A stretch of 64,000 nt of DNA, taken from contig CACHAX010000004.1 of NCBI GenBank assembly GCA_902577875.1, positions 1 to 64,000 on the forward strand, read 5' to 3'. This document shows positions 10,954-16,077 of this stretch, piece by piece. The position numbers and the translations under genes are program-made. This DNA comes from an uncultured Pelagibacteraceae bacterium. Lineage in GTDB: Bacteria; Pseudomonadota; Alphaproteobacteria; Pelagibacterales; Pelagibacteraceae. Below the pieces are notes generated by a model that made no database searches, was not told the DNA's origin, and was given only the letters and a program-made list of their open reading frames with translations. How positions within the stretch are numbered: position 1 is the first letter of the stretch; each line of letters starts with the position of its first letter.

Positions 10954-11157
10954 AAAAAACCCTGTATCTCTGTACCTTTTCAGGCACAAAGATCAGTAGT
11001 TTTTGGCACGTCGTTGTATGCGCTACCGCCATGCCTTCCACCCCGCAATTTTAGCGCTACTCTGCGTGGTTTTCTGCCCTCTGGGCTTGAATCTCTCGAT
11101 TTTTCCCCAGATGGTCAGTTAAGAGTTGCCTCTTAATTCAATTAAGAGATTATCACA
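10954..11157 (-). ncRNA. Candidate structured RNA, about 200 nt, class unknown
   Basis: The core (about 11005-11114) is roughly 55% G+C, far above its AT-rich surroundings; in AT-rich genomes that usually marks structural RNA. Read on the minus strand, I see five successive hairpins. They are a 9-bp palindrome (11130-11148); TCTGGG/CCCAGA with a 4x4 internal loop and an AATC-GAGA-GATT cap (11080-11111); CCA..CGCA/TGCG..TGG with a bulge (11038-11069); GGCATG/CGTGCC (11005-11035); and an 11-bp stem closed by GAAA (10967-10992). A T6 run at 10954-10959 follows, 8 bp before the ogt ATG. Both tetraloops are GNRA only on the minus strand, which fixes the orientation. A consensus promoter lies upstream. 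It could be an independent small RNA or an ogt leader. No tmRNA, SRP, RNase P or 6S hallmark found. Confidence 0.55.
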
Positions 11158-11163
11158 GTGCAA

Positions 11164-11193
11164 ATTATATTAGTATCACTTTATAGTTGATAA
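11164..11193 (-). promoter_or_regulatory. Promoter for the structured RNA candidate
   Basis: On the minus strand TTATCA (11188-11193) and a perfect TATAAT (11164-11169) are separated by 18 bp. Transcription would begin near 11157, just before the palindromic first hairpin. In AT-rich DNA TATAAT alone is weak evidence; the fit with the start of the GC-rich segment is what supports it. Confidence 0.45.
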
Positions 11194-11230
11194 TTATGGG
11201 TTTTTAACAGCTGTGAATAGCGTTAATAAG

Positions 11231-15796: not shown

Positions 15797-16077
15797 TATT
15801 TTGTAAAATTATCAGCATAAGATTTTAAAGTAATTTTTCTTTTATTTGGTTCTATTAATTCAAAATCAATATTATTTTTTTTTGCATACTCAATTGCTAA
15901 TTCTTTAGTAGAAAACTCTAACTTTAATTCGCCATAAGTATCAGTAGAACTCTCCCACCCCATCAAAGGATTGGTACCAGGATCATCAGTAATGTATTCG
16001 ATAATCCATTTATCAAATTTCTTTAATCCTGACTGCATTGCCGTCTTAGACGGTTTATATATTTTAGCTTTTTTCAT
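15796..16077 (-). CDS. Complex I accessory subunit, NDUFS4-like (ETC_C1_NDUFA4 family)
   Basis: I start at ATG 16077 (93 aa). The ORF-track start at 16125 reads through the tRNA-Pro gene and gives a meaningless N-terminus. The protein begins AKIYKPSKTAMQSG and contains NPLMGWESSTDTYGELKLEFSTKELAIEYAKKN and a KSYADNF ending, the hallmarks of the NDUFS4/AQDQ 18-kDa accessory subunit found in mitochondria and alphaproteobacteria. It stabilises the junction of the N-module of NADH dehydrogenase. It lies 4 bp from the tRNA-Pro 3' end, on the same strand, and heads the operon with the transporter and glpX. Confidence 0.92.
   Translation of the reverse strand: MKKAKIYKPSKTAMQSGLKKFDKWIIEYITDDPGTNPLMGWESSTDTYGELKLEFSTKELAIEYAKKNNIDFELIEPNKRKITLKSYADNFTK

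Follow-up and report, generated by a model that had tools for sequence, protein, structure and literature searches.

An IMES-2 RNA gene in a Pelagibacteraceae genome: covarying hairpins joined by a loop-loop contact, a conserved upstream region and empty sites in close relatives

Few cells on Earth are as numerous as SAR11 bacteria. In the genome of one of them, an uncultured member of the Pelagibacteraceae, a short GC-rich island lies directly upstream of an ogt-like gene, which raises the question of what RNA is encoded there and what it could do in the cell. We analyzed the complete stretch of 64,000 nucleotides containing this island, referred to here as the window. The island had been described as a GC-rich core of about 110 bp in AT-rich DNA, and it is indeed conspicuous: the best 110-nt stretch starts at 11005 and has 55.5% GC, compared to 27.8% for the whole window. 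Only one other 110-nt stretch comes near this value (start at 16067, 52.7%), and it overlaps a tRNA. The predicted fold has an energy of -70.7 kcal/mol versus -44.8 +/- 4.1 kcal/mol for shuffled sequences (z = -6.35), and none of 200 shuffles was as good. The five ordered minus-strand hairpins of the original prediction are present, including the one with a 4x4 internal loop and a GAGA tetraloop, and so is the long stem adjoining a T6 run at 10959-10954.

The same prediction could not match this RNA to any class. Comparing the 64-kb window with Rfam (cmscan) refutes the idea of an unassigned class: IMES-2 (RF02035) matches the minus strand at 11143-11003 with a score of 162.7 bits (cut-off 54.7; E-value 6.7e-43). 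The match covers the full length of the model (positions 1-141 of 141) and is the sole non-tRNA match above cut-off in the window. The locus is an IMES-2 gene from a SAR11 (Pelagibacteraceae) bacterium, and the RNA family itself is already known and catalogued in Rfam; object and hairpins had been recognized correctly, but not the family. IMES-2 was reportedly found in ocean DNA in a study from 2009, with its function given as unknown. Going by that description we take it to be one of the most abundant SAR11 RNAs, present in marine metatranscriptomes. To our knowledge its job is still not known. The window copy resembles the Rfam family in its full-length sequence, its four-hairpin structure and its marine SAR11-type source, and nothing distinguishes it: promoter, loop-loop contact and empty sites are all features of the family or the genus. 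The comparisons add three things: two hairpins are in kissing contact, the promoter is conserved and comes with a DnaA-box-like pair, and several SAR11 lineages have cleanly lost the gene.

We predict an RNA of about 190 nt composed of four hairpins and an intrinsic terminator. Its core, equivalent to RF02035 positions 1-141, occupies 11003-11143 on the minus strand, on which all elements of the RNA and its promoter region are located. Hairpin 1 (11119-11136) has a 7-bp stem and a GNRA tetraloop, which reads GCAA in the window and GUAA, GCGA or GUGA in relatives; 100% of its cells are paired and changes on both sides of the stem are found in 4 of 7 pairs. Hairpin 2 (11074-11118) consists of two stems separated by the 4x4 internal loop GAAA/CAAG. 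Its inner stem is capped by GAGA, or by UUCG in genus g7 (g1 denotes the window's own genus, g2, g3 and so on other genera of the same family). Pairing amounts to 95.6% of cells in helix 2 and 96.6% in helix 3, and 12 of 15 pairs show both-sided changes. An invariant AAA linker (11071-11073; conservation of at least 97% in 111 distinct sequences) leads to hairpin 3 (11040-11070), whose 8-bp stem shows both-sided changes in all 8 pairs and carries a 15-nt loop with the sequence GCGCUA. Hairpin 4 (11005-11035) has a stem with a G-A mismatch (98.1% of cells paired, both-sided changes in 7 of 8 pairs) and a 13-nt loop with the sequence UAGCGC. Since none of the 111 IMES-2 sequences has an open sense frame, the region is considered non-coding.

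That this structure is not a product of chance is concluded from covariation among relatives rather than from fold energy. Covariation of the stems had been proposed as a check, and it was found: in the four-hairpin consensus of 54 distinct relatives the covariation score is 0.490, compared to 0.195 for shuffled and approximately 0.07-0.11 for slid controls. Altogether 96.2% of cells are paired, a percentage biased towards structure, as the hairpins derive from the Rfam consensus and the contact between the loops was identified in the same 54 sequences. Both-sided changes occur in 33 of 44 pairs, and this bias alone does not produce them.

Covariation also shows that hairpins 3 and 4 are joined by a 6-bp loop-loop contact, in which GCGCUA of loop 3 (11052-11057) is the kissing partner of UAGCGC of loop 4 (11020-11025), with 97.8% of cells paired. 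Both loops are drawn unpaired in the cmscan alignment of the RF02035 model. The middle pairs of the contact are CG in 40, UA in 13 and AU in 1 sequence, and GC in 38, AU in 14 and UA in 2 sequences, respectively. The commonest type of contact is GCGC/GCGC (79 sequences), followed by GCAC/GUGC (10), GUAC/GUAC (8) and GUGC/GCAC (4), the rarer types being GUUC/GAAC (2) and GAAC/GUUC (1); one end pair is lost in the types UCGC/GCGC (4) and GCGC/GCGA (2). On a tree of the RNA calculated without the contact columns, the loop type has to change at least 13 times. The contact could in principle link two molecules; formation within a single molecule is the simpler arrangement.

The region upstream of the core is conserved as well. 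In 125 of 126 relatives a promoter box, which reads CAACTATAAAGTGATA in the window (11174-11189), is located 27-30 nt ahead of the core, and in the 864 kb searched the full motif occurs only at IMES-2. It is accompanied by the -10 element TGTGAT (11152-11157), whose position and 15-16 nt spacer are largely conserved and whose commonest forms among relatives are TATGAT, TGTGAT and TATGTT. The promoter proposed originally, TTATCA-18-TATAAT, is present in its letters but is not conserved: where the window has TATAAT, relatives have CATATT. Conservation is seen in the CAACTATAAAGTGATA box and in TGTGAT. These elements place the start of the transcript nearer to 11143 than to 11157, probably within about 2 nt of 11143. 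At the other end the predicted intrinsic terminator (10954-11000; -21.2 kcal/mol) forms a long hairpin with a GAAA-containing loop and a CUG/CAG base, ending in the T6 run. By a simple test, i.e. a hairpin with a T-run no more than 130 nt from the core, 99 of 127 relatives have a terminator, and its sequence varies between genera.

Further upstream we noticed a tandem of DnaA-box-like 9-mers, TTATTAACG-CTATTCACA (11212-11229), with the family consensus TTATCCACA-YAATTMACA. A match to TTATCCACA with no more than one mismatch was found in 92 of 123 relatives versus 0.9% of control windows, an enrichment that is inflated by kinship. The exact sequence is rare genome-wide, with 8 occurrences in 1.18 Mb. 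Four unrelated gene neighbourhoods share the pair; at loci next to mnmA it partly overlaps the end of that gene, where its conservation could be partly coding. The distance between the pair and the promoter box is mostly 31-33 or 40-43 bp, two values about one helical turn apart. DnaA itself is present, and its DNA-binding signature GRDHTTVIHA was found in both g9 genomes read.

The original prediction left the choice between a trans-acting RNA and a cis-acting leader of ogt. In g1 the ogt-like gene (PF01035; 10666-10947, minus strand) is the downstream neighbour of IMES-2, and a tyrosine recombinase (PF00589; 11493-12446, plus strand) the upstream neighbour. Ogt occupies this position in g1 only: IMES-2 is flanked by SNase and SRAP in g9, and by selO and rmuC in g7; in g2, g3, g4, g6 and others its neighbours are mnmA and, in most cases, a convergent membrane-protein-like ORF. 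Judged by these four unrelated neighbourhoods, IMES-2 is a free-standing gene with its own predicted promoter and terminator, and because of them it is not regarded as a leader of ogt. A leader or riboswitch would fit the arrangement in g1, where ogt follows on the same strand with its ATG 7 nt past the T-run, so that read-through could feed the gene. However, most of the other genera have a convergent gene facing the RNA, and ogt stands without IMES-2 in 18 genomes of the window's own genus. The changed neighbourhoods refute this role for the family as a whole and leave it very improbable overall, while some expression of ogt by read-through in g1 is possible as a local matter. The other half of the proposal, a structured and independently transcribed RNA of the trans type with promoter and terminator, agrees with the comparisons.

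Some further features of the neighbourhoods were observed. Between the T-run and the ATG in the window (10959-10945) there is no room for a separate ogt promoter. In many IMES-2-free genomes ogt comes immediately after a small ORF, whose stop codon often overlaps the ogt start codon. At the g1 loci examined, the genes beyond the far side of the recombinase vary strongly, a pattern resembling an integration hotspot. Genes of DNA repair or recombination adjoin IMES-2 in three of the four neighbourhoods (ogt in the window, g1; SRAP and SNase at L031, g9; rmuC at L035, g7).

IMES-2 is a single-copy gene. Among the genomes sampled, many of which are incomplete, it was found in 134 of 197 from the window's family, representing 12 of 14 genera. 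Samples from the order and the class contained it in 108 of 247 and 3 of 385 genomes, respectively, and the three from the class are members of the window's own family. Where genomes with the core pattern carry a name, it is that of Pelagibacteraceae or Pelagibacterales; the two exceptions are hits that fail the model. These named genomes are the basis for equating the window's family with SAR11/Pelagibacteraceae. The hosts are of the marine SAR11 type, with model matches confined to the window's family among the genomes searched. Carriage by viruses was considered and rejected: four pattern hits in IMG/VR are chance hits lacking a model match, and phage records gave no IMES-2 match.

Twenty near-complete genomes of g1 have no IMES-2, even when searched with a model that includes divergent members. 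Hidden divergent copies were rejected as an explanation; the model R1 gave four hits of 14-17 bits in these genomes, all to one recurring region that we take to be rpoA/rplQ coding sequence. The promoter box occurs in them at approximately chance level, and the occurrences inspected have neither an adjoining DnaA-like pair nor IMES-2. In 18 of the 20 genomes we found ogt, with the flanking recombinase and a transporter kept (the transporter was not seen in L335). At these 18 empty sites the stretch reaching from the DnaA-like pair through promoter, RNA and terminator is missing, and at some of them an unrelated ORF of about 145 codons is found in its place. On a tree of ogt and the transporter, presence and absence of IMES-2 require at least 5 changes, 2 of which are forced by well supported branches. 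Because IMES-2 is widespread in the family we read this pattern as repeated loss, with repeated gain as the alternative. Its function is not essential everywhere, since several lineages lack the RNA, and related genomes with and without IMES-2 at the same site amount to natural knock-outs.

We then considered how IMES-2 might act. Profile searches that detected their positive controls found Hfq in 0 of 24, CsrA in 0 of 20 and ProQ in 0 of 20 genomes of the family, the window's own genome included, a result covering recognizable homologues, as an unrelated or highly diverged chaperone would escape such profiles. Canonical 6S RNA (RF00013) was found in 0 of 30 genomes. Bacteria of this family therefore seem to live without the usual small-RNA machinery of Hfq, CsrA, ProQ and 6S, which weakens the usual explanations for an RNA such as IMES-2. 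We favor a trans-acting role in which IMES-2, as a compact structural RNA, would bind a protein and serve as scaffold or decoy, and assign a probability of roughly 45% to IMES-2 being a protein-binding rather than a base-pairing antisense RNA. This preference is based on the loop contact, which consumes the long loops and leaves conserved unpaired runs of just 3-5 nt, and on the failure to detect the usual helpers. Small independent transcripts that have a promoter and a Rho-independent terminator, as predicted here, are typical of antisense RNAs pairing with mRNAs. On the other hand, no conserved unpaired stretch of seed length is left once the loop contact is counted, the loops covary with each other instead of staying fixed for a target, and neither Hfq nor ProQ was detected in the 24 and 20 genomes, respectively, so that we consider antisense pairing unlikely.

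Somewhat less likely still is a functional stand-in for 6S RNA that binds RNA polymerase and dampens transcription. Both are free-standing small structured bacterial RNAs, and the absence of canonical 6S from all 30 genomes and the reported abundance of IMES-2 in marine metatranscriptomes would suit this role. IMES-2, however, consists of several short hairpins and lacks the hallmark of 6S, a long helix opened by a large central bubble, and the IMES-2-free genomes are also without 6S, so neither RNA takes the place of the other. With CsrB/RsmY-type sponge RNAs, which titrate CsrA, IMES-2 shares a string of consecutive hairpins and a terminator, but it has no conserved GGA in its hairpin loops and CsrA went undetected in 20 genomes; unless an unrecognised CsrA exists, this role is refuted, and we give it hardly any credit. 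For the question of what IMES-2 does, the comparisons provide features that can be tested, namely the loop-loop contact, the promoter with DnaA-box-like sites, the natural knock-outs and the apparent lack of Hfq, CsrA, ProQ and 6S RNA.

The DnaA-box-like pair suggests, more weakly, that transcription of IMES-2 may be tied to DnaA, the pair keeping to the same face of the DNA helix with respect to the promoter. We rate binding of DnaA to the pair at about even odds. A complete model, in which DnaA controls IMES-2 through helically phased boxes and the level of an abundant protein-binding RNA would be coupled to the replication cycle, is rather doubtful as a whole. The conserved tandem boxes just upstream might instead belong to oriC and make IMES-2 a replication-origin transcript. 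We rejected this explanation, which has next to no probability: in the genome G009, which is complete or nearly so, a cluster of DnaA-like boxes and the minimum of the skew are found near 141 kb, with IMES-2 at 303 kb, and in G043, where IMES-2 is at 1.34 Mb, the sampled cumulative skew reaches its lowest values near 0.35-0.41 Mb. The boxes of the likely origin read TTATAAACA/TTATGAACA, unlike TTATCCACA upstream of IMES-2. In G009, which belongs to g9, this likely origin is an AT-rich gap at C1:141322-141680 near the skew minimum, between a PPSR-maf-aroE-coaE-dnaQ-like block and rho, and contains the two box sequences repeatedly.
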